Assembly: GCA_963930775.1 (NCBI GenBank)
Contig: OZ005705.1
Coordinates: 4,712,001-4,776,000 of the forward strand
Source: Cliona cf. orientalis
Taxonomy: Eukaryota > Porifera > Demospongiae > Clionaida > Clionaidae
Reading direction: 5' to 3'
DNA: 64,000 nt
How positions within the stretch are numbered: the first letter of the stretch is position 1; the number at the start of each line of letters is the position of its first letter. Shown here in pieces: positions 4,839 to 41,200 of this stretch. Below the pieces are notes generated by a model, which saw nothing but the letters and a program-made list of their open reading frames with translations, was not told the DNA's origin and ran no database searches. A program made the translations under genes and the position numbers.

Positions 4839-5686
4839 CTAGTCTCGTCCCCTCCAGTGCGCGAGAAGAGAGAGGGAGGGTCTGGAACATAACCCTGGGC
4901 GGAAGCGTCCCGAAGGCAGAAATTCCGCGACAGGTGTTGATTGGCCACAATACAGGGCTAGGGTGTTAAACCACTATACTCGAATCGGAATGGACTGCAA
5001 AACGTGCCCAAACGTGCTGCATGCAGTGCTCGTGCGCGTGCGCACTTCAGTAAGTAATTTGCATTCTTTGTACGCGCGCGAAACCACAAAAGCCAGATTA
5101 CGCGTCACGATTACTTGTGCGCAACATTCCTTCGGGACACTTCCGCCCGGGGTTACCGTATGGCCGGAAATTTTCGAGGGATCCAATTTTCGTGGAAGGC
5201 CCATCTTCAAAGATTTCGCGATCTAATTTTCGCGGATGGACGTTCCAGGGTTGCTCCACCCACAATATCCGTCCGGCTCCACCTCTTACTGCACGCGCGC
5301 CGCAGCTCAGGAACCGGCCGAAAAAACAGCAAGCGATCGATCGATCGTACTTGTACTTAGCAGAGATCGAGAAATGGTACGAGAGTAGCATATGATCGAG
5401 GCTAGAGACATTTGTGCAGAAGCTCAACAATAATGAACTGGTGTAAAGTAAACCAGCTGTTAGATCAATCCAGCTGGGCAGCGGCATGCACCACGATGGC
5501 CACGCCCCCTGTTATCGCGCGTGCGTTTATATAGGCTTTTTTATTTCGCGGATTTAATTTTCGTGGGTCGCCAGTCAACCGCGAAAACCGCGAAAATTGG
5601 CTCCCTCGAAAATTTCCGGCCATACGGTATGTTCCAGACCCTCCCTCTCTCTTCTCGCGCAATGAAGGGTCTGGGGACGAGACTAG
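4839..5686. mobile_element. MITE with 'ctagtctcgtcccc' ends, containing a second MITE
   Basis: The left arm (4839-4890) carries 'ctagtctcgtcccc', then 'gcgcgagaagagagaggg' and 'ggtctggaaca'. The right arm (5630-5686) is its inverted copy, ending 'ggggacgagactag'. Between them sits a separate inverted-repeat element at 5154-5630. Similar termini occur at 1628-1700, 10256-10571 and 16753-16796. Confidence 0.65.
5154..5630. mobile_element. MITE nested inside 4839-5686
   Basis: The ends read 'taccgtatggccggaaattt' and its inverse 'aaatttccggccatacggta', with arms that continue for at least 35 bp ('tcgagggatccaattttcg'). Its position between the arms of another element shows the order of insertion. 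The core holds low-complexity 'cgcgaaa' repeats and no gene. Confidence 0.7.
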
Positions 5687-6816: not shown

Positions 6817-9354
6817 CTATGAGGGTGAAATCAATAATATCATTATAAATAACCATACACAATCCAGTTCATTCCTAATCCCATCCATATCTTTTTTTTC
6901 GTCTTGTAAGTACACTCTATCCGTAAATTTCCTCTGCAAACAATAGTTGGTGATGCATGTAGCTTCCTTTATGAACCTGTAGTTTTCGCTTTGAGATCGC
7001 TGCGCTGGTTGCATTGCATGGTAGACTCCCTGCTGACCCTTTCCTTTAATCAAAGCCTGCTGATCTCTGACTTTTATAGCCAATATCAGTGGTTTGTTCA
7101 CTTTTCTCATGGCGTTTCTTCTTGATAGTTTGACATTGCCACGGTCACTGTGCTCTGGTGGTGGATCTGATCTGCTCTTTTTGCCATGCCAATGGAGCAA
7201 GAGGCTTTTCGCTTTCTTCAGTGTTTGTCCTGCTTTTGTATTTAATTGTTTGATCATGAATTCATTGTGAGGTTCGTATGAGCTCCGCCTGTGGTGTTTG
7301 GTATGACTCGATACTGCAATAGTAGAATCACTGGGATACTTGCCAGAGGACACGACTAGAGGTGTTTGGTTTAAGTTATCAATCTTGTGTCTTTTCGTTG
7401 GAGTACTAGTGCTTCGTCGAGTTGGGCTCAGACACCCTCGCAGGGCACTATGGTGGGTGGGGCTGGATCTAGACAGTGCACCTGTTGGCTGTTGCCAAAA
7501 ATGCTCCTTTGAGAAGCGGTAGAGGCGTCCTTCCTTGAACATAGTTCTCTCTTTGTCCCTGACGTCCTCTATGACTCCAGTCACGACCAGCTGGTGGCAG
7601 AGAATTAGCACCTGTCCGACGGAGACCGTCTTAGGCAGGACGGCGTTGAGGTAGGTCGAGAGGCATGCCACAGCCTCTGCTCCACGGAAGCAGTTCTCGT
7701 AGATCCTGAGCCCGCTAGTGTGTCGTCCTGGCTTGATGCTGTTCTCTAAGTGGAACACTGTGTTCTCCCAGAGTGTAGTTGCCCTGAAAGGACACTTGGA
7801 CACCGCGAGAGCTGTGCAGTATTGTACCTTTATATTAGTTATACTTTCTTATGATTATACCTATGAGAACTTTGCATTTAATTATACTAAATATACATAT
7901 AATATACTGTATAATATAATTAAAATTTGTATATGACCAGTATATTTTGTATATTTTATCCTCAGTATTGACTGACAATATTATATTATGGCTATATCTA
8001 ATATTATATAGCTATATAAAATTATCCATGATATAGTATAGCTTCCTCTTATGAAGTTAGCTCTACTGTATAAAGTGTATAGAATGTATAGTTATACCAC
8101 TTTATATTTAACCTATACATTATATGTAATTATAGTGTATAATTGTATAACGTATATTATTGTATAATTATTTTCTATGTCACGATGAGCTGTATAAAGT
8201 GTATAGAATGTATAATTATACAGCTTTATATTGAATCTATACATTATATATAATTATACTGTATAATTGTATAATGTATATTTATTTTATTGTAAAATTA
8301 TTCTTCGTTGAGCTAATTATAATATAATTATATACTATAACTATTAATTCAATATGAAGTGATATAGCTAGCTATAATGTCTGACACTTGGAAAAAGTGC
8401 TTAGCTAAACTCGACGGCACGGTTGCTTAAACTTATCACGTCTGACACTTGGAAATATTAAGTGCTTAAACTCGACGGCACGGTTTCTTAAACTTTTCAC
8501 GTCTGACACTTGAAAAAGTGCTTAAACTCGATGGCACGGTTGCTTAAACTTATCACGTCTGACACTTGGAAAAAGTGCTTAAACTCGACGGCACGGTTTC
8601 TTAAACTTATCACGTCTGACACTGGAAAAAGTGCTTAAACTTGATGGCACGGTTGCTTAAACTTATCACGTCTGACACTTGGAAAAAGTGCTTAAACTCG
8701 ACGGCACGGTTGCTTAAACTTATCACGTCTGACACTTTGAAAAAGTGATTAAACAGAGTACATTATACACTTTATACAATTATACTATAGGCCCAGCATA
8801 TACGTCTATAAGAGTGAATCAGATTGGGATATAATATTATAATATTATACATTTTATATACTATAATCTAATTGGTATAATTATATATCTATACAAGTTA
8901 TACATGCATGCATAGCAGATTCATGTACCATCTGTATACAAGTTATACTATGCATGTATAAAATGATATATTAGTATAATTTAATATAGCTACCATTATG
9001 GCTGTGTTAGACAGTTATACGTATATTTGTAGTATATTTGAGTATACTCTGTATATTGATCCAATCCTGCACCCTTATGGACACCGCACCACCGGGCACT
9101 GGCAGCAATCGTGGAATGACACATGTGGCAGACTCCATGGAGACGTTGCTACTACTAGCAGCCCTCCCGAGGCTCTCAGTTTCACATGCAGTAGTGGCTA
9201 GAAAGACGGGAAGGACACCGACAGGGACAGAGGAGAATGTCAAGCACTTGAGGCAGCTCTCTTCTTTGTCGTCTAAGAATCCTCGAATGTTGAGGAAGTC
9301 GAGAGAGCTGCTCATCGACCTGCTCGCTTTGAACCGTCCAGTCAGCTTTTCCAT
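6817..9354 (-). CDS. DEP-domain protein, split by an AT-rich insert
   Basis: A cytoplasmic signalling protein by domain type; DEP domains bind membranes or GPCR/G-protein partners. The downstream exon (about 7806-6817) encodes a DEP domain: 'FRATTLW' opens helix 1, 'YENCFRGAEAV' is the hallmark turn, 'GVIEDV' precedes 'GRLYRF'. A basic, Ser-rich, probably disordered tail of about 200 residues follows. The upstream exon starts at an ATG at 9354 and reads in a compatible frame to about 9088, ending 'LLPVPGG'. Between them lies about 1.27 kb of AT-rich DNA that must be intron or insertion. It is bounded by the 10-bp direct repeat 'tggacaccgc' (7797-7806 and 9078-9087), so exact splice sites are unclear. 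The domain is closer to the DEPDC4/DEPDC7 type than to DEPDC1, but the tail matches neither. The DEP exon is solid; joining the first exon is tentative. Confidence 0.6.
7807..9077. other. AT-rich insert or intron in the DEP gene
   Basis: Strongly AT-rich DNA containing 'tataattataca'-type repeats on both sides of a 57-bp minisatellite. It is flanked by a perfect 10-bp direct repeat 'tggacaccgc'. Removing it together with one repeat copy leaves the coding frame continuous. No gene is seen inside. Confidence 0.6.
8379..8755. repeat. 57-bp minisatellite, about 6.5 copies
   Basis: The unit begins 'gtctgacacttggaaaaagt', continues with 'gcttaaactcgacggcacgg' and closes with 'cttaaacttatcac'. Unit starts are at about 8379, 8440, 8501, 8557, 8614, 8670 and 8727. 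The first two units are 61 bp and the later ones 56-57 bp. Copies differ by a few bases (g/t in 'ggttgc/ggtttc', c/t in 'ctcgac/ctcgat'), so the array is fairly young. Each unit holds a small stem, 'cactt...aagtg'. Confidence 0.9.
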
Positions 9355-14794: not shown

Positions 14795-16581
14795 ATGGTA
14801 AGATGGGTAGCCAGCTGTATCTTGTTTAAAAACTCACCTAGCTAAAAAGAAAGAAATTATAAAATGGGTGTACGTTAAATAAATTTGTAGGCGACATCGC
14901 GTCCTTTGGTGTCGGTATTCAACAGTGATGGCAAGAGTGATGCCCAAACTGGCCTACCAGCTGTATTCAGAGCTCCCATTAGATCTGATGTTGTTCAGTT
15001 CGTTCATACCAACATGCGGAAGAACAAGAGGCAGCCTTATGCTGTGAAGGCAGTGGCTGGCCACCAAACGAGTGCCGAGTCCTGGGGCACAGGCCGTGCT
15101 GTGGCTCGTATCCCCCGTGTTAGGGGAGGGGGCACCCATCGCTCAGGACAGGCTGCCTTTGGAAATGTATCCTACCCAATTTCAACCAATATGTTAGATT
15201 ATTGATGATCGCTGTCATGAACATGTGACAAAATTAATGTTATCCATTGTTCTGGAGATGTGCTAAAATGTTTGTTTTTCCAAAAATCATTTTGGTAGTG
15301 AACCAGAGTACAACCAGAAAAGGGACTGTACTACTATAGAAACTTGTTTGAATTTCAAGGTGCCCTTATGTTTAACACCCTTCCTGACGAAACAAGATCA
15401 CTTGAAACAAGGCCGCCTTCAGAAGAGCACTGATCAGGCACTCCCAAACTCTTTAGTAATTATTATGTACTAAGTTAAATATTACTGTTAATTTTGTGTT
15501 GTGTAATTAGCTGTATCTATACAGGACCTGCATGAAAACCTACCTGCAGCATACCTGTCAAAAATAAAATTTATTACTACTACTACTACTGTATGTTTGC
15601 CTTGACAGCAGGTGTTTTAGATGTGCCGTGGAGGTCGTATGTTTGCACCAACAAAGACCTGGCGCCGATGGCATCGCAGGATCAACCAGAACCAGCGTCG
15701 CTATGCCATGTGCTCTGCCCTTGCTGCCACCTCTCTACCTGCGCTCTTGATGGCCAGGGGTCACCGCATCGACAACATTGGAGAGGTTCCCCTTGTTGTT
15801 GACAATGCTATTGAGAAGCTGACCAAGACTAGGGATGCTGTTAAGCTTCTCAAGGCACTCAATGCTTATGACGATGTTCTGAAGAGCAAGGCCTCGAGAA
15901 AGATCCGTACTGGCAAAGGCAAGATGCGCAATCGCCGTTTCGTTCGTCGCAAAGGACCATTAGTCATCTACAGTGAGGATCATGGGATCACTCGTGCCTT
16001 CCGCAACCTGCCTGGAGTCGATCTTCTTAAGGTAGACCGCCTCAATCTCCTCCTCTTGGCTCCTGGTGGGCACATGGGACGCTTCTGCATCTGGTCACGT
16101 GGAGCTTTCGAGAAACTTGACTCCCTCTATGGTACTTGGAGCAAGAAATCGAGCATAAAGAAGAACTACAAGTGAGCACTCCACCAGTCCCTTCCACTCC
16201 CACTTCTCTCCTCCCCCCCCCCCCTTCCTTCCTACCTGATAGTTTGCATTTCTTTCTAATGTACAGCCTTCCTCGTCCAAAGATGATTCAAACAGACTTG
16301 TCCAGGCTTATCAATTCTGATGAGATCCAGAAGGTTGTCCGCCCTGTCCAGTAAGTATATTGTTTATAACTGTAGTGTTGGTTTATAAGAGGTGGTGTAT
16401 TTCTCTGTACAGGCCGAAACCTAAGCGATTCTCGCAGAAGAAGAATCCTCTGAAGAATCTGAACGTAATGTTACGATTGAATCCATATGCCAAGACATTC
16501 CGACGCAAGCAGCTGCTTCTAGAGGAGCAGCGAAGGAAGGAGAGAGCTGCGGCACAGGACAAGAAGAGAGGACTCAAATAA
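14795..16581 (+). CDS. RPL4: 60S ribosomal protein L4 (uL4)
   Basis: A structural protein of the large ribosomal subunit whose loop lines the peptide exit tunnel. Five exons: 14795-14797, 14891-15166, 15621-16171, 16267-16350 and 16413-16581, all with GT/AG ends and consistent phases, giving 360 aa. Exon 1 holds only the ATG, a common trait of ribosomal protein genes. Diagnostic stretches are 'RPLVSVF', '[20 protein letters not shown]', '[19 protein letters not shown]', 'GPLVIY' and '[19 protein letters not shown]'. The last, in the C-terminal extension, separates eukaryotic L4 from bacterial uL4. The protein is about 65 residues shorter than human RPL4, all from the lysine-rich C-terminal tail. 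Intron 2 (454 bp) is where vertebrate RPL4 genes carry snoRNAs, but I could not identify one here. Confidence 0.97.
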
Positions 16582-20171: not shown

Positions 20172-20572
20172 CTATCAAACAGTATTTATAACTTGTGTGT
20201 CTGTATTATCTGAAGGTGAGAACCTGTGAGGCTCAACATGGTTATGACTGATACCTCTCTTGTTCCTTTCTTTGTAATCTTTCATTGGTTTTCCTGTACA
20301 TGAAAGAAATACTATATTTCTTCTAAAAATCCGGCATGGAAATAATATTGCTTGAGCTTTGCTGAATTTTTAGAGGGCTAACATTCAACATTGCATCCGT
20401 GTGTGCATTCTATTCCCGTTTATAGCATATACACATGATGACTTTTTCTGAAAATTTAGAGATTATTTTGAGTTATTCGGTAAAGGGTGTTAAATAATTA
20501 GAAAGGCCGAATTTTTAAAAGAAGTACAGTAATATCAATTTTATACAAAAATTTCAATGTGTGCATATACCG

Positions 20573-20780
20573 TATAGCGGGAAACTTTCGAGGGAGAAAA
20601 CTTTCACGAATTTCGCGATTTTTCAGCCATCCGCGAAAGTTTTCTCCACGAAATTCTAGGTATGCCACACCCATTATGCGACCAGTTTTAGTATTCTGTG
20701 AAAGTTTTCTCCGTGAAATGCTCCTTTCCTACCGATCCGCGAAAGTTTTCTCCCTCGAAAATTTCCCGCTATACGGTATA
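20573..20780. mobile_element. MITE, 'taccgtatagcggga' family
   Basis: A palindromic element: 'taccgtatagcgggaaactt' at the left, 'aaatttcccgctatacggta' at the right, with inner arms 'cgagggagaaaactttc' and 'gaaagttttctccctcg'. A partial copy of the 63249-63442 type abuts it at 20779-20935 in head-to-tail contact. Confidence 0.75.
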
Positions 20781-21198
20781 CCGTATAGCCGGAAATATTG
20801 GCGGGAATTAAATTTGGCGGTTGAGCCCAAATCGCTATTGGAAGAATATTGGGAAATTTGGGGGTTCGGTACGGGATCGCCATACACATTATATTTGCGT
20901 GTAGGAAATTTCGACGGATTTTAATTTGGCAGTTGTAATATAGACCGGTATGACATTGTGGTACTGTCTGTGGGGGAGGGGGAGGGGGGAGCGGTGAGTT
21001 TTGTATCCCATGTATGCACCCAAAATCACTGGGTATATTTAAGGGGTGCTTACTCAGGACACTATATGTGCCACATCTTGAGAAGTAACTACATACAGTA
21101 TTTGATGCATGCAAGAAATTTCTCCCTGTACTAGGCCTGGGCCAAATATTCGTGAATGATTTTTTTAATAATAGGCAGTTTTTTGAAGAAGTTGAATA

Positions 21199-21726: not shown

Positions 21727-24162
21727 TCACTCCCCACTTTTAAACTTGAGTACACTTGACATACTTGTACCTAAATGCAACCTCTTGATTAATTTTTGCG
21801 AGTTGCTTGTTGATGCACTGGTGATGTTCATTGCTCTAATTGGGTGGAGCTGTTGAAGTTCTTTTGTGCACTCTCCGTCTTGAATCACAAGTGGAATCAC
21901 TCTCCTATACTTGCCATTGTACTCCTTATAGTGACTGTGCAGTGCATACTTGAGCTCCTTTTGACAGAACTCTGATGTGTGAAAGTATTTGCTACAAACA
22001 AAGATCACTGTACGGCTTAGCTTGGTGGCTCGAATAATGTTTTCATCTATTGTTAGCCCAGCAATGAAATCACAGTAGTGCCAAAACACACTGTACCCTT
22101 TTGCTTTTAGTGGGACATGGAGGTAGTCTGTGACAAAAGACCTATCCGCATCAGCAAATGATAGAAAAATATCGTAGTCAAAATCTGTATCACAAAAGCG
22201 ATTGAATTCACATTAGTTTTATATTGACAAGATCATTTCCAGCAAAAAATCAGTATGGGTACTTACCATTGTGTGGGGCTCCAGATGAGTGCTGAATATG
22301 TTGGAGATAGATGTAAAGGATGATTGTGATGATAGTGGAGACTAGCAGTAGCAAGCTCCCTAAGATTGCTGAAGCAATGATATTATAAACTACAGATTGT
22401 TTCTTGCTGGTATGTTGCATACACAGTTTAGGGTCTGCCAATTGGTTGTCTGTAAAGTAACAGTCATGGTAACGTTTGTTTTTTTTTAGACTTTAAACTC
22501 ACCTAGAACATATGTATTAGTGTGTCCATAGCCACCGTATTCACCATAATACACAACACTAGCTCCAATCTCCATACAAGCATCCAGAGACTTGGCTATT
22601 AGGTATGTATCATTGCTGCCCAGTATTTTAGAACCCACAGCCACTGACACAACCATGACGTGTTCAAAAGAATATGAAGTAGTGTCACCACTATGAAAGT
22701 ATTCCAGCAGAGGAACTGACTGTTCATATCCTTCTCTTTGTATATGAATATCTCTAATGTTGTAAGATTCTGGAGCTGTCATCACTAGAGTAATGTAGTA
22801 TTGCTCTACTTGAGGCACTAGAGAATGGGATAGCAGTAAGCTCTGTTGCCGAGTAAACCATTCCACTGGTTGAAGTAAACTTGAAAAATAGGGTTCACAA
22901 AGTTCATAGACAATAAGGACAGGAGTAGAGCTCCGTATTATCAGGTATGTGTACATTGTTTCCTTGACATTAATAGAAAGTGGTTGCTCTGCTTTAAGTT
23001 TATATTTTTTGGATAGTACTGGTAGCTTATTCCCTGGGGAGTATGCTGTGACTATGATCTTTGTATCTTCATCTGCAACTGTATGGAACAAAGCTGCTAC
23101 ATGTAGTCCCTTTCTTATCTGATGTTCCTGCAGATGACCCAGGTCAGTGACAAATGTTGTCCCCCACTTTCTTGAGGGTGGTAAAGAGTAAATTGGATTA
23201 CCAACATACCCAAATCCCCTGTCGCCTCTTGTCACATTGCAGTCAGCTTCTGCAACGTAGACTGCCATACTTTTGGTTGATCTGATTATAGTTCCCTCTA
23301 AGCTTGGCTTCTCTTGCTTGCAGCTAGAAATCCTTGGCTGTATCCATACAACCTCAAAACTCATGAGACACTTGACTACTAGTGTTGTGTTGGCATAAGT
23401 TGACTGTACAAACTCATCTCTGTGACGAGCCCTATAGATGAGTGAGTCCACTGTCATAGTGATAGAGATATTTACACACTCAGAGCTGACAGTTGGAAAT
23501 GTGATAGCCACTGCAGGAATAGAGCTATTCCTAGGTTTCCCATGCAACACTATGTACTTGTATGTGAAGGTGTTTTGAGCAGAGCTGTTATACACATCTT
23601 CAACTGGTATGGATGAGTAGATATACACTCTCTCTCTTATCTTATGACTGACCAACGACTTAACTGTGGGATCTTCAATAATGATACTTGCAAAAGCAGT
23701 GATAGAGTCGGACACTGTGCAAATACCTCTGACAGACTCTTGTACTGATCCTGTAGCTTGTGCCTGGTCACAATAGTAGTGGAGGCAATGATGGAATTCT
23801 GATGCAAGTTCAGTTGGTGTGATGAGGTTCAGCATTGCTAGTCTATCAACTGATATTGGTCCAATGGTCAGAATGGGTGCACTGCCACCAATCAGAAAGC
23901 TTCCTAAGCTAGTGCTATAGTTGAGCATGTTAGAGTAGTAGATAGTGAGTGACTGTGGACTCGGTACAGCAGAGCAGTTACCATAGGGAAAAATCATTGG
24001 CAGGCCAAAATAAGTAGAATTTAAAGCTGCAAGGTATAAAACAGAACTCTTATGTAGACTACTTTGTTATCGTATTGACACATCACTCTATTGCTTACAT
24101 CCATTTGAGGCCACGGCTGTCAGTGCCACCAGTAGCAATGGTAGTTGATGTCTGCTGTACAT
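21727..24162 (-). CDS. IgGFc-binding-like/TIR transmembrane receptor, copy 2
   Basis: A predicted type I membrane receptor that could signal through its TIR domain. Four exons, 24162-24099, 24026-22503, 22449-22267 and 22184-21727, keep frame and give 742 aa. Exon 1 is a signal peptide (LPLLLVALTAVAS). Exon 2 is the whole ectodomain (residues about 22-529). Its middle resembles the IgGFc-binding N-terminal domain: 'SLEGTII' before a Cys-containing strand, 'WGTTFVTDLG', then 'SSTPVLIVYE' and 'LLQPVEWFTRQQ'. It has many N-glycosylation sites. Exon 3 holds the membrane span (about 548-572). Exon 4 is a TIR domain: box 1 'YDIFLSFADAD', a BB-loop-like 'CDFIAGLTIDENI', and 'SEFCQKEL' carrying the conserved Glu used by NADase TIRs. 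The stop overlaps a possible donor ('ggga|gtgagt'), so a further exon is possible. Its upstream neighbour is a paralog with the same exon plan. The ectodomain assignment is by motif, not by search. Confidence 0.75.
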
Positions 24163-24561
24163 TATTCTTGCTTTTGTGCATTCAATACCTTGCAGTACAT
24201 GTATTCTAGCGTGCATGCATGTTGTGCTTGTGATTGCATGGGTGTGATTGTGTAGTCTGAGACACCTCAAGTATTTGTACGAGAAACCACACAATATAAG
24301 GGTACCATACTTCCTGTAGTATGTATTACAACTGTAAGCAAAGTCAACAATAACACATAATGCAAGTCAAACTTTGACCAGAAAATTAATAATTTAATCT
24401 GATTGTATGAGTACAGTGAAGGCTGAGAGTGTATACGTGGCCATTGGTAAGTAAACATTGTTTCCCCAACTTCTGTTGTTGCAAGGGATGGTGGACAGTG
24501 GTCTCCATAACATAGCAGCTCCTTATGCACTTCATTAAGATTGTAAATTTCATTGCATAGT

Positions 24562-27209
24562 TCATGATTGAATAGGTCTCCCTGTATGTATGTATGTATG
24601 TATGTATGTATGCATGTGTGCGTGTGTTCATTATAATGGTACAGCTGGATGGGTTTATTTGATAATGACAATGTAATATCAACTTACCTAAGTCTTTCTT
24701 CAGCTTACTCATTAAGTTAATATGCTCTATGTGATTCAGATTTCTTGTTTTGATCCTGATTTGTGTGTATCTCTTAAGCTGATTTGCTAGCTGGCACTCA
24801 TCCTCTATAGTGACTGGAACCATCCTTCTCATACCCTGACTATTTTGTATGTCTATACAGTATGCTACTTCTTGATCGAACTCAGTGCCGAAGTGCTTTG
24901 TGCATACGATCACAACTATTCTACACACCTCTGCAGCACAGTGCATACTCTGAATGATTGATTTGCCAGGAGAGAATATATTAGATGTTGGGTCATGCTT
25001 CCAAAGTAGTTTATAGCCTTCCTTGATCAGGGGCTGATAGATGGTATATTTCACAAATCGTGAGTCTTCATCGGCAAATAAAAGAAGTCCATCATACCTG
25101 TAGTCTAAAAGCAATGCAAGAGGCAGTTTCTGAGATGATATGAACTTGTGTGGTGATGTATACCTTCACTTAGTTGAACTTCTTCATCCCTGTTAGTTCT
25201 AGCTGGATGTTTTCTCTTCTTCTCCCTGCACTGATAGCAACATGCTGATACTAGGCATATTGAGGTGCAGAAAAGTCCAGCAGTCAGAAGCCCACTTGTC
25301 ATGTGTACTGGCATCTGCTTCCTCTTTTGTTTGGGGTAACTCTTACAATCCAGGGTTTCATCCACTCCAGGTTCTGCATATGTTTGTTTGTTTTGGCTGA
25401 GTGCATAAACTGACTGCTATGACCATACTAATCAAACTAAGTGTTCCTGGTTGTGTCTTAGTACAAGTGTCAACTTACCTAGGGTGTATCCATTACTGTA
25501 GGCATACTGTAGGTCACCAGCATATGCAAATACTGTGGCTCCTATATGGATATCAGTATTTCTGTGCCATATGAGTAGCTGTGTCACATCTATTCCACCG
25601 GTGATATTGAGCTCTATGTAGAATACTATATACCCAAAGCTCACTTCAGTGCTACTCACGAAAGCCTTGTAGTTTAAAACTGGGATACTTTGGCAGAGGT
25701 CTTTGCCTTCTGTGATCTGAATGTCCGTTGGGTTGTAGTGCTCTTCAGGTACAACTACTGAAATGTGATACCAGTATACCTCATCATTGGTTGGATGCTG
25801 TAGAACTATGATCTGTTTATTAGAGAACCACTCTACTGGTTGTAGTAATACTGAATGGTGTACATTTGCATACTGTGAATAGATTGTGTAGAGCACTAAA
25901 ATGGGATCACTTGCTTTGATGGCGACATGACTAGTGCCAAGCATTGAGCTCGCTGAGTGCACAACTCTATAGACATTGCTTGTCATTAACACATCTCTAG
26001 TAATTTGAGGTGGTTGACTGAACTGATAGTATGTCATGTTAATAGTAGTACCATTTTGAGCTGCTCTAATCAATAGCTCATACTCAACATCATTCCTCAT
26101 TGATTTTGGTAACATGTTGATTTGCTGTGTATCAATGATGAATGTTTTGCCCCAATCATTCACTTCAGGCATCTGGTGGACCACCTGGGACTCATAACTG
26201 AACTCCACTGTACCACTACACCTTGCTTTATTTGTGAACACAGATATTGGTTTATTTGACATAATTATCGTTCCTTCCAAGCTTCTTGGATTTAAATTAT
26301 CACAAGTAGAAACCTTTGGCTCAATCCACAGTGTGGTATAGGTATTGCCTTGATCTTTGATGCTAAATTGTTGGTTAATTGGTTCCTCTACTGTGTTATT
26401 CAAAGCTTGTGCCGCTCCACTGAGCTGAATTGTGATTTCTGTCTTTTGGTGCATCTGAATTGTAATTCCATCTAAACGTGGTGTGCTTTCACTGCCATAG
26501 ACTGGCCCGAATAAGACATAGTAGTAATACTCTGCTCTGACTGAGGATGTGCATGACATATCGTCTTTGCATACCGGGTACATTGCAAAGGATTGATTGA
26601 ATGCTAATCCTGCAAAGAAAGCAATAACAGAAATTGTTGGATTCCCTTGAAAGAAGAAATTTGTCCCAAATACATCATTTTTGCAGTTATAGGCAAGTGA
26701 ATACATTTCTGCATGTGTTCCAGCTTCATTTGCTGTCATTTCAAACAGTGATGTATAAGACTTGCCCAAATGAAAAGTCTGCTGAAACTGGAGTGACTTT
26801 CCTGCAGAAATTGTCTCAAATGTCAAAGTATTTGGCTGGGTAATTTGTGAAGCTATGTAGAATGAGTAGTTCATATTGCTACTGTTGTACATTGAGTCAC
26901 AGTCACTGCGGTAGTGGAAGAGCAGAGGGACACCAAAGAATGTATCAATACCATTGCTCACCTTTACACCTATAGTACATGGATATGTATGCAATGATGA
27001 TGAGCTTGAAATATTTCATAGATCTGTAGACAGAATGGCCTGGGTTTTCAACTGTCTGATGGTAAGTACCGATAGTCTAGATGCTTAATTTGCTCACTGC
27101 ACATAGCTATTCAGTAATATCTAAGTCTAGGTATTAGCTTACCTATCATTAGGATAATAATATTATTATACACCAGCACTGGTAGGATGAGCAGTAGTTG
27201 GAATTTCAT
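24562..27209 (-). CDS. IgGFc-binding-like/TIR transmembrane receptor, copy 1
   Basis: Paralog of the neighbouring receptor, about 400 bp upstream on the same strand. Exons 27209-27143, 26969-25479, 25373-25164, 25104-24688 and a tiny last exon 24581-24562 keep phase 1 at every join and give 734 aa. Exon 1 is a signal peptide (MKFQLLLILPVLV). Exon 2 is the ectodomain with the same landmarks: 'SLEGTIIMSNKPISVF', 'WGKTFIIDTQQ', 'DPILVLYTIY' and 'LLQPVEWFSNKQ'. Exon 3 gives the span (about 541-564), followed by Cys and basic residues. Exon 4 is a more diverged TIR: 'YDGLLLFADEDSRFV', 'FSPGKSIIQSM' and 'TEFDQEVAY', so the usual Cys before the Glu is Asp here. The 3' splice site of the last exon lies in a 'catacata' microsatellite and is the weakest part. 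Ligand and adaptor are unknown. Confidence 0.72.
24583..24630. repeat. (catg/cata)n microsatellite at receptor 3' end
   Basis: The tract is 'tgtatgtatgtatg' and close variants, overlapping the polypyrimidine region ahead of the last exon of the upstream TIR receptor. Length changes here could alter that splice site. Confidence 0.8.
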
Positions 27210-29086
27210 ACTGAAAGTGAAAATTACCAGCAGATCAAACTTCACTTATTGATGAACCACGTGTGTAGCTTGATGGTGCTTGGGCAAGAGCATGATCCAT
27301 GAGTAGGTGGCCTATAGGTTCATGATCCAGCATCCTGTTTGGTATAGCATGCTAGTGGGTGAGGTCGTCATGCTCTCCCTCCACAGTCTAAACAGCAGCA
27401 ACACCAATGATAATCATTGTGGTTTTCAACCCATACCCCTTGAGACATTTATATTCCATGCATTTAGTAGTAGAATTTTCATGATCACTGGGCAACTATT
27501 GTTCATTGCTGGTCCATGCTGGTTGACATGGGTTTGATAAGTTTTAATGGACTAACAGTGCCTCACATACTGTGCATACCATAGGTGTGTATATTTAATA
27601 TGTCGGTTTTATTGCAATTCACTAGACAGACAGTCGGGCGATTATTAAAAAGGTCTGAGAACTGAGTAAATTGAGACTGAGATTATGAAATTAACTTTCA
27701 ACTCATAATTTTATGCCAATGAGATCACAAGATTTGCTTGCCAAGAAGACTGAAAAGAAATATGGCATGCAACTCAAGTTTCCTTTCTAACTCCAGAAGG
27801 GTCATGCAAAGTGCTTAAAGATCAAAAGCTAATGACCAACACGTGTATGTGGTAATAATGAGTCTAGAAACCACTGAACTATACATGTAGTGGTACTAGC
27901 TGTGAGGCAGGCTCAGGGACATAATATTGTGTTTAGAGCCAACCATATCAGATCCACATGATTTATATCTAGGAAGAGAAAGAAGACTGTGTGTGCATGT
28001 ACATGGCATATTATGACATAGAGCAAGCATATTTGATGTATTGAATAACCTTTTTAGTGCTCTGCGGTATACAGTGATGCAGCCCATGGTCGTGGATGCA
28101 TTGTGTGTGGGCTGATCCACACCAGCAGTCCCACTAATTCATATGCTGTATTAAGTACATTGGTAGTTTTGCTTTATGCAGATCTTCTCGTATGAATTAT
28201 CCATTGAGCACACTGTGATAATAAGTAAACTATGCTCTATGGTATCATAACAGCCATTAGTGCACCAGTTGGCCATGGGATCACCAAATGCCTTGCACAA
28301 GTGAGATTAGCAGTCTGCCAAATGTTTGAACAAGATCTATAGTTGTTGGTGCTATCTTTTTCAACTATCCCAGCCAGAAATTCTCAGGGGAAGATTTTAT
28401 TCACCGGGTCCTTCTATGACATATTCTCTGTATCATGTATCAGTATGTATGTGGGTGCATGCAATGATAATACTTATCTGTGACGTGTGAATATGACACG
28501 ATTGTACGTAGTCTATTATGCAATCCCCAGCTGGGTGCCCACTTTAGAGTTGGCACCTGCTCCAGATAATTCAGCTACAAAGAATGAAAAATTATACGAT
28601 ATCAGATTAAGAGGGGGATAACTCGATAACTCAAGATCTATTAATAAGAAATTGTGGCCGTTGTAATTTGTCTGGTTACTGTAGGCACAAAACTTAAAAA
28701 GATGAATGCATGAAAGTTTTGTGTAAGTTAATGTCTGTTTGCTCTATAGAGCAGGTCACAGAGTGTGTTGTGCAATGCTCAGTGAACTGTGCAGAGTTTG
28801 TGATAATAGAGTGCCAAATCTGGTTTAGGTTTTAAATCTCTATGTGGGTGGGCAGCAGAGTAATCTGACACTGCTGAATATAAGTCAGTAATATAGAGTA
28901 CATCATCACGGAGATACTGCTATTGTTTGTCATAAATTGCCTCCCACATGAAAGGAAATTTTTTCTTGCGGTTGTGGAACAATTCGATAACACCATTTTT
29001 ACTGTCATAGTATTATGGCTAATTGTTGGCGCTGCTGTGGCTCAGTTGCTGGCAGTTCTAAGTTGAGGTGAAGAGTATATGCTAGA
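27210..29086. other. Intergenic gap, receptor and GPCR promoters
   Basis: About 1.9 kb between the divergently transcribed TIR receptor (start 27209, -) and the GPCR (start 29087, +). I see no inverted-repeat element and no convincing exon. A short stretch near 29026 ('gctgctgtggctcagttgct') recalls a tRNA-like A box but lacks a B box. Confidence 0.4.
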
Positions 29087-30715
29087 ATGCCAGATGAATT
29101 TAATACACATGTCATCTATCCTGCAATAGTGATGAACAGATCTGTGACTGAAGGCGTCAATTCCACGAGTGAAAGAGATCCATTCATTGTCTGTGTAGAG
29201 AATAACTTTGGAAAGACAATCCTAGACTGTAGCAATTGCTTCAATTTGACAGCGACCCCAACTTGGATTCTAGTTCTGCATTCAATTGGAAATGGAGCCC
29301 TAATTCTTGCTAGTTCAATCCTCTGCCTGTTGATACTTGTATTGGTTATAAAGTACAAGAAGCTTCAGCGCCGTGCTGTCATTGTCAGCTTAAGTCTCAT
29401 CATTGCTGATCTGCTTCTCGTCTGTTCCTACCACTTACCAGCATTCACCAGCACCATCATTCTTGCCTGGCCATTTGAGTTTATTGGATGTCAAATATTT
29501 GGCTTTCTATCAACAACTTTTGTATTGACCCGTTGGTACATGATGAGTGTGCTATCTGCAGACCGTTTTTTCACAGTACGCTATCCATTCTCCTATGAAA
29601 AGTACAGCAAAGTTATCCTTACCATTATGACACTGATAGCGTGGATAATTCCAGTTCTCATCAGTATGACCTGCTTGAATATTCTGAGCAGTGTTGCCTT
29701 TCGGGAAAATGTTCCCACCTGTCTATTTTATTCCCCTACACTCGACAGAGGGTTGGTCTTTTTCTCTATCACATCTACATTATCATTTGCAATAGGGTGC
29801 ATACTACCAACAGTTTTGTATATGTGGTTGTATCGCAAAGCTAGGAAGCTAAGACCTTCAGCCACAAAGTTGGGAAAAATGTCAGTACAAATTGCAGCTG
29901 GGACAGTTATCCAAGTACCTCTTGGCCCTCTTGATAGGGATAAACGTGAAAGACGAGCATTGGTCACTTTTGCACTAATATTCATCACATTCTTTGTTAC
30001 AAGTGCTCCCCTCTTTTTCTTTCAAATACTTCGCTCACTATTCACTGATGCCTGGTGTAAAATTCCCATATCTGTGCACTTCATCGTGATTCAAGTGTTT
30101 CTCTGTTCTACTCTGCTGGACCCCATTCTAGTCATGAGGGATAGAGATTTCAGAAAATGCCTCAAGCTTTTCTTTTCTTGTCACAAGTGCATGGAAGCGG
30201 ACTTTGACACTGCCCAATTTAATGTGTCAGAAAACGGCTACCAGAGTAGACGATCTGATTCAGTGGACATTATCAGCTATAGAGGGAGAAGAGGGTCACT
30301 CTGCCCATCCACTGGCTCAGCTTCACGAATGTACTATGACACTAACCACGACTCTTTAACCATAACTGTTGGAAGTGATGCTGATCCATACCATAGAAGA
30401 ACTCAACTGACTACTCTACACGAACATTTATCAGAAGTAACGGTTACCAATTCTAATGGTACATGTGTAGTATCAAGCCCAGAACACCAGAATCACCAAA
30501 CTCCTGACAGTACAGGTGGTGGTCATGATCAACCAGCACATGATCGAAGTTATGATATTGATCAAGACACTAACATAAACTGTGAAGCAAGTCGTAATGG
30601 TGTTATTCATTTCCCAGATGCAGAGGCAATTGCAATCGATTCGTCATCAGAAGAGGTATGTTCTCACTGGACCATAACTTGGTATCAGCCACATAGTGTA
30701 CAATGTACGCACTAA
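29087..30715 (+). CDS. Class A (rhodopsin-like) G-protein-coupled receptor
   Basis: A seven-helix receptor in one long exon of 542 codons as read. An N-glycosylated N-terminus of about 70 residues precedes TM1 (near 75-97). TM2 has 'LSLIIADLLLV' with the conserved Asp. A Cys at the top of TM3 ('GCQIFGF') can pair with 'VPTCLF' in loop 2. TM3 ends 'SADRFFTVRYPF', a DRF variant of the DRY motif. TM6 is 'FALIFITFFVTSAPLFFF', with no CWxP. TM7 ends 'LLDPILV', replacing NPxxY with DPxx(V). The Ser/His-rich tail is about 160 residues. Near its end 'GAAGAG|gtatgt' is a good donor, so the true C-terminus may be spliced, for instance to an exon at about 30845 (MKSMILAAVS then stop). The ligand cannot be predicted. 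Confidence 0.85.
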   Translation: MPDEFNTHVIYPAIVMNRSVTEGVNSTSERDPFIVCVENNFGKTILDCSNCFNLTATPTWILVLHSIGNGALILASSILCLLILVLVIKYKKLQRRAVIVSLSLIIADLLLVCSYHLPAFTSTIILAWPFEFIGCQIFGFLSTTFVLTRWYMMSVLSADRFFTVRYPFSYEKYSKVILTIMTLIAWIIPVLISMTCLNILSSVAFRENVPTCLFYSPTLDRGLVFFSITSTLSFAIGCILPTVLYMWLYRKARKLRPSATKLGKMSVQIAAGTVIQVPLGPLDRDKRERRALVTFALIFITFFVTSAPLFFFQILRSLFTDAWCKIPISVHFIVIQVFLCSTLLDPILVMRDRDFRKCLKLFFSCHKCMEADFDTAQFNVSENGYQSRRSDSVDIISYRGRRGSLCPSTGSASRMYYDTNHDSLTITVGSDADPYHRRTQLTTLHEHLSEVTVTNSNGTCVVSSPEHQNHQTPDSTGGGHDQPAHDRSYDIDQDTNINCEASRNGVIHFPDAEAIAIDSSSEEVCSHWTITWYQPHSVQCTH

Positions 30716-30935: not shown

Positions 30936-32156
30936 TCATAGCCATTGGGCCCGTAGATCTACTTCTTTCCAGTCAAGTAATTCCAGAAGAGCTACATTAA
31001 ACTGCTTATAGGCTCCAAGCAGCTTTTTCCTGTCCATCTCAGTGAGCTTTTGCTGAGCAGGAACATCTCTCTTGCCCTTATTGTAGACCACAGCTGTTAT
31101 CCATTCATAAGTTTCAGAGTTTAGCCTTTTTAGACCTAGAAACTGAAACACCTGGTCAAGGATGACGCTGGGCTTTCGATAAAACTCCTCACTATTGAGG
31201 ATTAGAATGTTTTCTGGAGGAAAGTTGCACAGCCAGTTGAGGAGATGGACATAGTAGGCACCTTCCCAGACCATATTCATGGCAGGCTCGAACAGGCATC
31301 TCAACTTTGACCACTCCTTTGCAAATTTTGTTACGTCAATATGTCTTCCCAATGCCTCATGGAAGAATTTATCCAACTGTAGTTTTAATACTGTTGAAAT
31401 GGAGGTTGTATTCTGAATTCTCATGATGTTCAATCGTGCACGCATTAAGAAATTGGACACAAACCTGTCCACAGGATTCCTAAACAGCATTACAACTTTT
31501 GCCTGCTTTCCACACGACTCAAAAAGCCTTTTTGGTACCTCACAATGCACTAAGTTTCCAACACTGGCATCGCCAGTCATCACAGTATCAGATGGAAACA
31601 GCTGCAGGTACCTATCCCAGCTCACTGTCTCGTAGTGTGATGAGAAGTAGAAGGTCTCTCCAACTTTTGGCCCTTGATCAAGCCGGGTTCCTTCAAAATC
31701 TGGATGCTTTGACAGGTAATGATAGAGGGAGGAGGTACCTCCCTTCCTTGCACCAACTAGGAACAGTGTTGGACAATCCAAATGAAAGGGAGTGAAGTTT
31801 GCATGGTTTTCCCTCCGCACTGAGTTTGCTGGACAATTGGACTCAACATCAAAGTATAGATCAGACCCCAGTCTTGTGAGCGTTTCAGTACGATAGCGTG
31901 GATCTAGTTTGGGTACTGATGCTGCAATACTAGAGTAGCTTATGGCTGAATGCAACATATGAAACTCCTTAGGTCCATCTGTCGTGCAGTTGCATTGACA
32001 GTTCTGGTCATCTGGTGCTATGAGCTGTTCTCTCTTGATCCCCATTTGATATCTCAGGAAATGCTTCATCAATACAAGTAGAGTATTGATTACAAGCCCA
32101 CTTGATACTGTGAAGAGTAGCCACCATATTATTCTGTTCTTCCATGAAATGGCCAT
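30936..32156 (-). CDS. Golgi carbohydrate sulfotransferase, single exon
   Basis: It should transfer sulfate from PAPS to a glycan in the Golgi lumen. The intact frame is 406 aa: a short cytoplasmic tail, a membrane anchor at about residues 9-31 (type II), a Cys-rich stem ('CQCNCTTDG') and the catalytic domain from about 125. The 5'-phosphosulfate loop is 'LFLVGARKGGTSSLYHYL' and the 3'-phosphate motif is 'VVMLFRNPVDRFVSNF', both complete. 'WEGAYYVHLLNWL' and 'NILILNSEEFY' follow as in the GalNAc4S-6ST/CHST15 and heparan sulfotransferase group. Which sugar it modifies is not determinable. The ATG at 32156 lies 125 bp from that of the ClC gene on the other strand. Confidence 0.88.
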   Translation of the reverse strand: MAISWKNRIIWWLLFTVSSGLVINTLLVLMKHFLRYQMGIKREQLIAPDDQNCQCNCTTDGPKEFHMLHSAISYSSIAASVPKLDPRYRTETLTRLGSDLYFDVESNCPANSVRRENHANFTPFHLDCPTLFLVGARKGGTSSLYHYLSKHPDFEGTRLDQGPKVGETFYFSSHYETVSWDRYLQLFPSDTVMTGDASVGNLVHCEVPKRLFESCGKQAKVVMLFRNPVDRFVSNFLMRARLNIMRIQNTTSISTVLKLQLDKFFHEALGRHIDVTKFAKEWSKLRCLFEPAMNMVWEGAYYVHLLNWLCNFPPENILILNSEEFYRKPSVILDQVFQFLGLKRLNSETYEWITAVVYNKGKRDVPAQQKLTEMDRKKLLGAYKQFNVALLELLDWKEVDLRAQWL

Positions 32157-32281
32157 TGCTTGGGGGCGTTGCTCGCAGTGCCTGGCGCCATGGCCCTCCG
32201 GCTGGGTCAGCTCCGCCCCTAGCCAAGCCAGACCCCTCCCACTTACCGGTTCTCAGTCATGTGACTAAACAACTTAGTCAT
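32157..32281. promoter_or_regulatory. Bidirectional promoter, sulfotransferase/ClC
   Basis: A 125-bp interval between two divergent start codons. It contains 'gtcatgtgac' at 32256-32265 and 'gtcatatgac' at 32277-32286, which resemble the E-box-type CLEAR element (GTCACGTGAC) bound by TFEB/MITF factors that control lysosomal genes. No TATA box is seen. Confidence 0.4.
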
Positions 32282-35200: not shown

Positions 35201-38200
35201 GACCTCAGGGCTCAGTAGAACCCTCGCTTCGCTCGGGATTCTACATAGAGCCCTTCGGCCTTCTAAATCACGTAGAAACCTCCTAAACAGTGTCTAACTA
35301 TTATTTAGTGGTTGACTAGCTATTGTGACATTTTGGGGCCATTACTGTCCTATAAAAGTACTACCTTGTTGATGTGGAGATCATTACAAGGTATAGGTAG
35401 GAATGTACTCATCTATATCTGTACGGGACAACAATGAATATTCAGCAATAAAGTGACGCATTCACTAAAATAGATAGCGATTTTGCAAGTGTGTGTTGTT
35501 TATCAAGTATAATAATATTATTACCCCGCGCGCATGCGCAAGGGGTAAAGCAATCGGTTTGTATGTCTGTTGTTGTCGTTGTCGTCGTCGGCACGAAAAT
35601 CGCCAGATCTCGAGTTCTAGGCGTCTGTGCGTGCTATAAGCACAACCAATCGGTAGATATCGGTGAAAAAATGGTTTGTACGCGCTTCGAATTTCTCGAA
35701 AAAGCTTACTAGTTCTACAAATCGTGCATTTTCTGTTCAGCATGCCTGTGGTTTATCGACCACACCCACTCTTTTAGTATGCGGATGCGACTGCGCATGC
35801 TCAAGCACTGTGTTGTAAAGGGTCGTCACGTCATAAAACCGCTACATGTGTGCCTCATAGTATTGCAATACTACGCTAGAGTGGCTACAGGGCGCGTGGG
35901 GTATGTGCTCTATAGAGCTCTAGTTTCCGTAGTGTCCTGGGTAAGCACCCATGGGCGCTTAAACATACATCGTGATTTTGGCCTACATAGGCGCTTACCC
36001 GGGACATAATTTCCATACGTTTGTATAGAAGCTGCTACATTGACCCCTTGAAATGAGGTACATGGGCGCTTACCCGGGAGTGGGCGCTTGCCCGAGATAC
36101 TACGGTATTATGCATATTTATACGTACAATATACTGTTATGTGGACTCTTACCATTTTATTCACATGCTCGCTCACTCACGCTATTCAGAGTGATGTCTA
36201 CTCTCCCGATGGTAAATGTGCATCCTGGAAGGAGTGGTCTGAGATAGCTGGGGTGCACTCTGACCTTGGCTCCTACCTCTTCAACTACAGTATCTATGTC
36301 TTCATTGCCCTCATTTTCGCTGGAGTGGCTGGCCTCTATGTCATAACATTAGCCCCCTATGCCTCGGGCTCTGGAATACCAGAGGTACATATATTATTAC
36401 CTGATTGTACTCTAGCCGCTGTACTCTTCATGGATAGAGGTGTCAGACTGTGTATCTTGGATGTGGAAATAATTATAAGTCGTGTTGAAGACCCCATCAA
36501 TTGTGAATATAATTGTGTTTACAATGAAAGTTTCCACATTTTCACTGTTATGCCCAACTTTATCAGTCGTAGTGATTTGTGTGTGTGTGTGTGTGTGTTC
36601 AGATTCCTCAGTGGATTATTATGATTTGCATGGAGTCTCAGTGGATTTAAAAATTTGTATATGCATGAGCTGTTTTTACCATTTTCAGGTTAAGACCATT
36701 CTGAGTGGTTTTATCATTCGTACCTACCTGGGTGCATGGACGCTGCTCGTCAAGTCTGTTGGTATGGTACTTGCTGTGGGGGCGGGGCTCTCCCTCGGCA
36801 AGGAAGGACCACTAGTCCATGTGGCATGCTGCGCTGGAAACCTCTTTACAAGGTATGCGGTTACTCATAGTAGAACGCTTTTTGTATAGCACGTGCTCAC
36901 CACAGTTTCATATCCTAGTTTTTGAGCCAAGCATATGTGGGTGGGACATGAAACTGTTTGGATCGAAACATAATGTAAAAAGAGTAGCAAGACTTACTCA
37001 TACTCCTATGCGTGAATCCTTAATCTAATACGAGAATTTTGAAAAACACACACTTTTCTGGTAAAGGTCATCAATCGCTCAATATAATTATAATTACACA
37101 CATTATTATGAGAAGTCCTAAAATGCTAATTTCTTATGTTAAATTGGATCATACGTTGTATTTGATTAACCGTGCACCAGACATAGAATTGATGCCTATT
37201 ATTTGTTATCTCATTCATATTGTTTAGAGTTTTTCCCAAGTATTTCAAGAACGAGGGTAAGAAGAGGGAGGTGCTCTCTGCCGCGGCTGCAGCTGGGGTG
37301 TCTGTGGCGTTTGGGGCTCCTGTTGGTGGAGTTCTCTTCAGCTTGGAAGAGGTAAGCTCTGGGGATAGAGTGGGCAATAATTACTGTCTGTGTGATGGGA
37401 ACTGGCGTCAGCATAATATCATCTATTCATCCATTTGCATACTAGTTATTATGATATTCTAGATGGCTGAGGTGGGGGATTGTTCCCATAGGCATGGAAT
37501 TTGTGATGAAAGCTGAGCCTTCTCTTTCGTGTATGGTTATAATTTGCAGGTGTCCTACTACTTCCCGCACAAGGTGATGTGGAGAGCCTTCTTTGCCGCC
37601 ATGACCGCAGCCTTCACCCTCACTCTCATGAACCCTTACTTTTCCGGTCATCTTGTCCTCTTCTATGCCAACTACGATCATCAGTGGCACCTCTTTGAGC
37701 TGGTTCCATTCCTACTCATTGGCGGGTTCGGAGTAAGTTCACAAAAACCATTACCGCAAACTTCATGATGTCTACTCAATGCATGAGCGATAATCCCCAA
37801 ACATCTATTCTTCACTGATGCAGTGTCGCATCTGCCTCATATTAAGCATGTTGTTTTATAATAGACCATTTGATAAGGATCTACAGCCTTGCTTGCCTCC
37901 TATCATCATGAACCAGTGTTAATATATATGGCGTTAGAAGTTAATTTCCGGTGTGATTCATCTGGCTGTATTTGAGTTGGTTATTTTCTCTTTTAGGGAT
38001 TGTATGGTGCATTCTTTATCTGGTGCAACGTGAAGTGGACTAAGATCAGAAGAAAATACTGGAGTAAATTTCCATATCCATTGATTGAGGTATGTATTGT
38101 ATTCCTGTTACCTAACATTATGCCTTTGTACTATATCATAGAATAGTGGAACCCCTTTATGAGGACACCTAATGACGACACTTTCCAATGGTGTCCAAAC

Positions 38201-41200
38201 TAGAGGGGTTCCACTGTATACTCTTGACTGTACATCCTGCAGGTGCTGGTGATAGCACTATTGACAGCACTGATTCAATATCCCAATCCCTATACTCGCT
38301 TCAATGCCAGTCAAGTCATCAGAAAGCTGTTCTCTCAGTGTGGGCCTGAAGACACTGGGGACCTATGGTCAGTTGCACGTCTCCATCCTCTCTGTTTGCT
38401 AAAATATCTAGGTGTGCCTGAGCAGGCTCTGGCAGGATGGCCTCCCTAGATGTGGGGTTGGTTATAGAAAATGAGCTGTTGAACTTTTGTGCAGTACAGT
38501 CAGCTTTTTGTACTTCTCTTCTAGGCTTGCCTTTTGCCTTTAACATGTATCTAGTAGGTGGGCATTGGAATAGTTTCCCCTAGGTTTGGGAGTAGCTATG
38601 GAAGATGAGCCTTCTAAACTTTCATGATCAGATGTTAACGTATCATCCCCTATTCTCAAGGTTAGGTTCCAAGTGACTCCACCTATGCTAGAATGTCTAG
38701 GTGTGCCTCTGCAGGCACTTGTAGTAAGTAATAAGATATTTGTAGGTCCCCTCCTTCCTTATGAGTATTCTAGTCGCATTTGTATGTGTACATGTATTAA
38801 ACACCAATCCATATCCCCCCGCTGCAGTAACTACAACCTGACGTCTCAGAACATTGATGCTGAGTACCATGACACGCAGGCCCTGGATGGTGTCTGGAGA
38901 GCCACATGGCAGCTGGTGCTAGCCATGGCTGTCAAAGGACTCATCACAATCTTCACCTTTGGAATCAAGGTAAGGTTAATGCAGTCACCTGGTCATGGGA
39001 TCTTAGGTACAAGGATCTGACTCTATACTGGGCTCTGATCTTTTCCGCAGGTTCCTGCTGGCTTGTTCATTCCCTCCATGTTTGTTGGCTCCTGTATGGG
39101 CAGAGTGGTCGGCATTTGTGTGGAGCAGCTTGTCTAGTGAGTTGATACTGTACCCCCCCCCCCCCCCCCCCAACTGGCTCCTCTGGATTTACCTACCTTT
39201 TTTCTTTTTGTGTATATAGTCAATATCGAGACTCGACATTCATCCGACTGTTTTGCTCTGAGAATGACACTTGTGTCACTCCAGGTCTCTATGCTATGAT
39301 AGGAGCAGCTGCTGCCCTGGGTGGCGTCACAAGAATGACAGGTAAGGCTTGGTTCTGTGGTAACATACTTGCATATCTTCATCCATTAATGCTCACTCTC
39401 CTCTCTCTTTCCATCCCTTCTCCCTCTCTCACTCTCCCAGTGTCTCTTGTGGTAATCATGTTTGAGTTGACTGGTGGTCTGTCTTACATTGTTCCCATTA
39501 TGGTTGCTGTTCTTGTCAGCAAGTGGGTTGGTGATGCTCTCGTCAAAGATGGAATGTATCCTTAGCAATTACGCAACTTTCATTATTCTGCACTACGGAG
39601 GAATTAAGCTGCTCTTATTTATCCTCTGTGTTGTATAATTGTACCGTGGTGACGTTTACTATCTTGGCTAAAAATATTCCCCACAATGCTCATGCATAGG
39701 CAACATTTGCATGGCCACTTGATCAAGTTTCTCCCAAAATATTTCCCCCTTTAACTCAAAATTAGTTACGATGCTCACATTCACCTCCTTGGCTATCCGT
39801 TCCTGGACAGTAAGGAGGAATTCACTCACGACTCGCTGGCCTGTGATGTGATGAAGCCCGGGAAGAACGATCCTCCACTGACAGTCATTGACCTCTCCAC
39901 AGTCACCATCGGCAGTCTGAGAGAGGTGGTGGAGGAGACAGACTACTTTGGCTTCCCTTGTGTCCTGAGCAAGGACTCTCAGCTGCTGGCTGGATTTATC
40001 ACTAGGAAGGATATTCTCTTTCTCTTAGGTAAGGACTTGCAGATTGGCTATAGCCTTGTTCCTGGCCATCCCCATTCCCAGTTTTCAGTATTGCATACTG
40101 AATGGTGGAAATGGAGCCAGGGACAAGGCTAGTTGGATAAGAAATCAGCATTAAAAGGATATCATTTATTTCCATTGGGTGTCTCCTGGGAGCCACTGAA
40201 AACATCCAGTTTATGATCTGCAGAATTCTGCCCACCCGTCTGCATACTAGCATTGTACAAACGAGGGAAGGGGGCTTATGTGCATATGTGTGATCGTGTT
40301 CCATATGACGACCATCACTAACCAACGATTACCAAGTAGACGCACACTAGCTCTCATTAATTACGACACAAATACACAATGTAGCTGCTACTGTACTACT
40401 TGTAGCTATAGCTACTGCCCACATTTGATGGTTAGAGAATTGAATGAGCGTTTTGTGTGCAAGATAAACTACCTACCGTGTTTATTCTAATGGAACGCAA
40501 GCTAAAAAATAATTACAGTTTTCTCTCGTGCGATTTTCTGGTAAAGGTCGTCACACGCTCCATTAAAATACATTATGAAGAGTTCAAGAATGCGAATTTT
40601 CTTGTGCTAATTATATCTTGCATTTTATTCACATAAACACAGTATGTAGGAAGTTGAGCTAAAAGTGCAGGGGGGGACATAATATGTGTGGATACTATGG
40701 TATTTCAACATTGTTTCTATTGTTGGTCCACATGCAGACCAGGTGGCTCTCCGTGAAGAAGGAATTGAACTAACAAGTCGAGTATTCTTCAGCGAGTCAT
40801 CTCGGAGAGTTTCCAGTAACATGTTGGATTCTGATGTTCCTTCCGTGAACTTTAGGGGACTAATGGACCCTGTACGTTCACAATACCCTGCCGTAATTTT
40901 GCTGGCTAAGTATTATTATATACCTACTATCATGTTGCATCAATATTATTTTGTTGCAGTCACCATTCCAAATCGCTGACCAAACCCCAATGGAAACGGT
41001 TGTGGAAATGTTCAGAAAAATGGGCCTGAGGCAGGTCCTTGTCGCACACAATGGGTGAGTATACATTATAAGTAGTGACATAGGATCGCTCTCAGCATGC
41101 TGGGATTGTAATATAGGATGACGCCCCCTGTACTCAGCCCTGCTGGGGTTTATGCTGAACCACCAGCAATTATAATAATAATTATGTTTATGTAGCTAAT

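Follow-up and report, generated by a model that had tools for sequence, protein, structure and literature searches.

Tandem genes of the sponge Cliona cf. orientalis predicted to encode receptors joining an IgGFc-binding-like ectodomain to a cytoplasmic TIR domain

Sponges are said, in sections of PMC7308585 and PMC6208332, to lack canonical Toll-like receptors (TLRs) and to possess instead receptors that join immunoglobulin (Ig) domains to a TIR domain, and both the MyD88 pathway and these Ig-TIR receptors are reported from sponges in the same sections. Passages of PMC8242945 introduce sponge TLR-like receptors as TIR proteins with Ig and report one complete non-canonical TLR, and the available text of PMC12909245 assigns Ig to 6 of 14 Dysidea avara TIR genes and a death domain to 1 of the 14. 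A 2016 count in a public domain database, given in part of PMC5094078, arrived at 362 TIR_2 and 381 TIR architectures. Here we describe a pair of genes, termed A and B, in a 64,000-nucleotide stretch of the Cliona cf. orientalis genome (assembly GCA_963930775.1, contig OZ005705.1, positions 4,712,001 to 4,776,000; hereafter the window, whose numbering is used throughout), the predicted products of which pair a TIR domain with an ectodomain resembling the IgGFc-binding domain of FCGBP.

Exon modelling places two paralogous genes head-to-tail on the minus strand between 21727 and 27209, gene A at 21727-24162 encoding 742 amino acids and gene B at 24562-27209 encoding 734 (Table 1). At a probability of about two in three, we consider both products to be type I single-pass receptors with an IgGFc-binding-like ectodomain and a TIR signalling tail. 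From its N-terminus each would have a signal peptide, then some 500 extracellular amino acids forming one module akin to the H (IgGFc-binding) domain at the N-terminus of FCGBP, a single membrane helix, and a TIR domain in the cytoplasm. What the sequence shows is the gene anatomy, as an open and phase-consistent model, together with the domain matches and the paralogy. The sequence-only reading had proposed tandem paralogues within these limits, sharing one exon plan with phase 1 at all shared joins, and the exon model matches it throughout: the stop codon of A ends at 21727, the ATG of B begins at 27209, three phase-1 joins in A correspond to three in B, and alignment of A with B gives z scores of 39.7 for the ectodomain and 22.7 for the TIR domain (200 shuffles, protein alignment).

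No leucine-rich repeat (LRR), Ig, vWD, C8 or TIL model was matched in the spliced proteins (Pfam, E up to 1), which sets A and B apart from sponge Ig-TIR receptors, TLRs and FCGBP. The sponge Ig-TIR receptors, or non-canonical TLRs (parts of PMC6208332, PMC12909245, PMC7308585 and PMC8242945), likewise combine an extracellular module with a TIR domain on the cytoplasmic side, but in A and B the module is IgGFc_binding-like and contains no Ig match. TLRs share the membrane layout, the TIR tail and, for the TIR domain of A, the best matches in the PDB, yet A and B show no LRR match. FCGBP also has one IgGFc_binding domain towards its N-terminus, the ~500 amino acids of the A and B ectodomains comparing with 450 for its H domain in the available portion of PMC9354016; its body, however, is secreted and mucin-like, whereas A and B have in place of the vWD, C8 and TIL repeats a membrane helix and a TIR domain. 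Finally, a ctenophore protein with FN3 repeats and TIR2 (Mnemiopsis gene 3; passages of PMC11797021) is likewise a TIR protein with an unusual ectodomain from an early-branching animal, differing in that A and B carry IgGFc_binding rather than FN3.

The identity of the ectodomain is carried by the Pfam model IgGFc_binding (PF17517, curated gathering cut-off 25.6 bits), which matches the spliced protein of gene B at 57.9 bits (1.3e-15) and that of gene A at 26.6 bits (4.5e-6), with similar values for the raw unspliced frames. Neither of the two reversed ectodomains run as controls matched any Pfam family at E up to 10. An IgGFc-binding-like character had been suggested for both ectodomains from sequence alone, and the profile search places both above the cut-off, marginally so for A. 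The pairing with TIR, also part of that suggestion, is found by Pfam in both spliced proteins. The match in A lies a single bit over the cut-off, but because the two ectodomains are homologous it is carried by the strong match in B. Several further observations weigh against the receptor interpretation at this end of the protein. For scale, the ectodomain of A also gave an implausible 5e-4 match to an NCBIfam bacterial regulator model, and no Pfam model covers the N-terminal ~170-205 amino acids of either ectodomain. Ectodomain A has no sequence match in the PDB, and the PDB rows for ectodomain B are four interleukin-21 receptor entries at E 0.41-0.49, which we take as chance. An AlphaFold prediction of the ectodomain from a two-row alignment reached a pLDDT (predicted local distance difference test) of 29.8, too poor to compare folds. 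According to sections of PMC9354016, FCGBP loses Fc binding when its H domain, about 450 amino acids long and N-terminal, is deleted, and a homologous N-terminus occurs in some bacterial proteins; in our view the name should not be taken to mean that A and B bind IgG.

The C-terminal TIR domain anticipated by the sequence-only reading was recovered in both tails, with TIR_2 above its Pfam cut-off of 28 bits. The TIR exon of A matches TIR_2 at 59.5 bits (5.9e-16) and TIR at 9.9e-10, while that of B matches TIR_2 at 34 bits (4.8e-8) as its sole TIR-type Pfam match. Among 27 PDB rows for the TIR domain of A, the 8 best are TLR15/TLR2, TLR1, TLR6 and TLR2 entries (2.8e-8 to 1.6e-5), whose alignments span about the first 90 of its 151 residues. 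Plant TIRs appear among the rows from 1.8e-4, and none of the 27 names SARM1, MyD88 or the IL-1 receptor.

These matches bear on a different function for the same receptor anatomy, namely that the TIR domain is an NAD-consuming enzyme, as in SARM1 or bacterial and plant TIRs, and not a platform for adaptors. We regard this as unlikely, though several observations speak for it: of the two Pfam models, TIR_2 scores higher in A and alone matches B, plant TIRs figure among the PDB rows, and the TIR domain of A matches the NCBIfam retron-TIR anti-phage model (6.8e-9) as well as, at 2.2e-7 and weaker, TIR models of PADLOC. That scores from these two model sets are below cut-off says little, the cut-offs being meant for whole proteins. 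Given these significant matches at the domain level, we rank a bacterial-type TIR lower but do not reject it. Because bacterial anti-phage TIR models match comparably, TLR-type descent of the TIR domain of A is not settled. In addition, passages of PMC12909245, on Dysidea avara, describe sponge TIR2 genes as resembling ctenophore ones and not the TIRs of TLRs or MyD88. The TIR domain of B has no PDB sequence match at E up to 1 and none in the same NCBIfam and PADLOC searches, and its predicted structure (two-row alignment, pLDDT 42.9) is too poor for a fold comparison. A proline of the BB loop has a role in adaptor binding. The equivalent stretch in A reads FIAG, against FVPG in the TLR1 entry, a difference that does not help the adaptor interpretation; the corresponding region of B reads FSPG. 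Against enzymatic action stand the 8 TLR entries at the head of the PDB rows, which include none named SARM1, and a membrane-anchored layout that is that of TLRs and the IL-1 receptor. Mainly from this layout, we favour TLR-like signalling over NAD cleavage as the probable output of A and B.

Turning to the gene models, the plan common to A and B comprises a signal-peptide-like exon, an ectodomain exon of ~1.5 kb, a membrane exon and a TIR exon, to which B adds a fourth intron near its C-terminus. All seven introns are GT-AG, all seven are in phase 1, and their lengths range from 53 to 173 nucleotides. The ectodomain and membrane exons of both genes are multiples of three flanked by phase-1 introns, and such symmetric modules of class 1-1 are typical of exon shuffling. 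The ectodomain frames run without a stop for 526 and 527 amino acids, which, as we estimate rather than compute, far exceeds what chance would produce at about 40% GC. On the simple Kyte-Doolittle scale, a hydropathy maximum as expected for a single membrane helix falls in the membrane exon of each gene, and one further window in B, within the TIR domain, barely exceeds 1.6 (1.70). At the N-terminus the same scale gives a maximum of 2.41 for B and no 19-residue window above 1.6 for A. PolyA-like ATTAAA hexamers, of which chance occurrence is common, lie at 24398, between the stop of B and the start of A, and at 21169, past A.

Whether ectodomain and TIR exons belong to one gene depends on the predicted joins. 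Were the models an artefact, the locus would hold secreted IgGFc-binding-like proteins beside separate TIR genes, and the unspliced ectodomain frames do meet a stop shortly after the donor, at 5 codons in A and 15 in B. Splice sites were ranked by a consensus against the 3610 GTs and 4334 AGs of the minus strand. Among GTs, the donors joining ectodomain to membrane exon belong to the best 0.33% in A and the best 0.11% in B, and the acceptors of A stand at 0.4%, 1.6% and 5.9% of AGs. Gene B is weaker, and here the ranks side with the artefact: the acceptors of its exons 2, 3 and 5 come no higher than the top 13%, 42% and 14%, its remaining acceptor (of four) is in the top 4.8%, and its third donor only in the top 6%. 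The intron before exon 5 of B has a strong donor (GTAAGT at 24687) and a weak acceptor adjoining a TGTA microsatellite; read through without splicing, exon 4 would extend the TIR frame by ~100 amino acids. The microsatellite itself occupies 24583-24617 and abuts the acceptor proposed for this last exon, and changes in its length might affect the C-terminus of B.

Several features nevertheless make the artefact improbable, and we would give it little credence. In the TIR frames no Met occurs before index 127 of 161 amino acids in A and 73 of 259 in B, in both cases past TIR box 1, so that the TIR exons are not translatable alone as whole domains. At ~27% overall identity, the paralogues agree in the order, the orientation and the phase-1 joins of their exons. 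Two of the three joins (ectodomain/membrane and membrane/TIR) coincide in the alignment, at columns 560 and 630; those after the signal peptide differ (columns 31 and 24). Since both parts are homologous between A and B, the duplicated unit contained ectodomain and TIR together. The Met positions, the conserved order, phase and columns, the strong ectodomain donors and the co-duplicated TIR domain lead us to favour, on these predictions, a single gene in each case. A model with separate ectodomain and TIR genes was considered and rejected for want of a Met before box 1 and for the repetition of the plan in two paralogues.

The divergence between A and B is uneven along the protein. Identity is about 26% in the ectodomain, comprising 19% in its N-terminal part and 31% in the IgGFc part, and 34% in the TIR exon, whereas the membrane exon (z -0.2, 13% identity) is no more alike than shuffled sequence; similarity of ectodomain and TIR domain but not of membrane exon would be expected of a paralogous receptor pair. 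Over 686 aligned codons, positions 1, 2 and 3 are 42%, 53% and 33% identical, a pattern that suggests a protein kept by selection with third positions near saturation. Ectodomains so far apart are also what allorecognition genes may show, and FCGBP is described in portions of PMC9354016 as part of the mucus scaffold. Both observations would suit an adhesion or self/non-self receptor, its ectodomain binding neighbouring cells or matrix and its TIR domain reporting contact rather than microbes. We hold this to be a little less probable still than enzymatic action of the TIR domain, as tblastn finds no copies beyond these two within the window and immune signalling is the usual meaning of a TIR domain. 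Searches for relatives covered viral, plasmid, bacterial and archaeal collections and were pattern-seeded, reaching mainly close relatives, so that their negatives say little: the ectodomain alignment gave 69 pattern matches in viral and 91 in genome contigs with none confirmed, the TIR domain of A gave 10 in viral contigs with none confirmed, and ectodomain B had no relatives in plasmids, phages or viral contigs.

Returning to A and B as immune receptors, one may picture their origin and action as follows. A phase 1-1 ectodomain exon would have been put before a membrane-TIR module by exon shuffling, and the resulting ectodomain would bind an external ligand, be it a microbial surface, a mucus or matrix glycoprotein, or another cell. 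Clustering driven by the ligand would bring the TIR domains together, and these might then engage an adaptor of the MyD88 type in the manner of Toll and IL-1 receptors. The two proteins could act either as separate sensors or as a pair. The sequence-only reading, too, had inferred that they could be a new type of innate sensor for mucus, bacteria or allorecognition ligands. More speculative, and in our opinion somewhat doubtful, is the larger proposal that they represent an undescribed innate-receptor lineage of an early-branching animal, in which exon shuffling of a 1-1 IgGFc-binding unit onto a membrane-TIR module turned a mucus-type domain into a Toll-type sensor, possibly as an A/B heterodimer.

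As to novelty, the sequence-only reading had held that the ectodomains of known TIR receptors are of the LRR or Ig kind, which is too narrow, since extracellular FN3 repeats have been published for a TIR2 protein of a ctenophore (passages of PMC11797021); with that protein in print, changed ectodomains on TIR receptors are an established theme. We found no description of an IgGFc-binding domain paired with TIR in the searchable portions of the literature, with the provisos that a TIR protein may be meant in the figure of PMC8242945 and that current architecture tables were not compared; the legend to Figure 1 of that article, in the text available, lists IgGFc-binding among the "other domains" of pattern-recognition receptors and leaves the receptor carrying it unstated. 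Nor was FCGBP found joined to TIR in the available passages on FCGBP, TIR and receptor domain architecture. We therefore take A and B to be probable TIR receptors with an unusual ectodomain, and have moderate confidence that the pairing is undescribed.

Table 1. Predicted exons of genes A and B, in window coordinates
Gene	Exon	Coordinates	Strand	Content
A	1	24099..24162	-	start ATG and signal-peptide-like segment, ends in phase 1; donor TGGAT/gtaagc
A	2	22503..24026	-	ectodomain, 1524 nt, symmetric 1-1; IgGFc_binding at protein residues 228-453
A	3	22267..22449	-	membrane exon, 183 nt, symmetric 1-1; Kyte-Doolittle 19-residue maximum 2.59
A	4	21727..22184	-	TIR domain and stop codon
B	1	27143..27209	-	start ATG and signal-peptide-like segment, ends in phase 1
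B	2	25479..26969	-	ectodomain, 1491 nt, symmetric 1-1; IgGFc_binding at protein residues 193-468
B	3	25164..25373	-	membrane exon, 210 nt, symmetric 1-1; Kyte-Doolittle maximum 1.92; weak acceptor
B	4	24688..25104	-	TIR domain
B	5	24562..24581	-	final codons and stop codon; the most tentative exon of the models

Elsewhere in the window, gene B is adjoined on the opposite strand by a rhodopsin-family G-protein-coupled receptor in a single long frame (29072-30712, plus strand; 7tm_1 7.9e-27), followed by a sulfotransferase frame (30939-32252, minus strand; Sulfotransfer_1 7.1e-14). Neighbouring minus-strand frames at 57010-57894 and 59189-60130 match Nucleotid_trans (PF03407) at 8.1e-8 and 3.1e-10 and are perhaps a second tandem gene pair. 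Matches to ribosomal protein L4, a DEP domain and a CLC chloride channel were found in frames at 15621-16172 (plus), 6820-7848 (minus) and 36479-36886 with 39146-39562 (plus), respectively. A 24-base motif of the CCGTATAGCGGGAAA type occurs in 7 copies with at most 3 mismatches (0 in 100 shuffles), at sites that include 20570-20804, 5156-5627, 3533-3556 and 63252-63275; two pairs face each other across 207 and 472 bases, like the ends of small inverted-repeat mobile elements. Tandem repeat arrays lie at 8379-8754 and 61814-62307, one with a 57-base unit in 6.5 copies and one of GACAGTAA/GACAGTGG, the latter followed by a further array whose unit is its reverse complement.

If A and B are receptors of the kind proposed here, a second class of ectodomain on the same TIR tail would widen the receptor repertoire of sponges and would offer a direct candidate for the means by which these animals detect microbes or mucus. 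A second suggestion would then be that the IgGFc-binding domain is used outside animals that possess IgG, its recognition being coupled there to a known immune signal.

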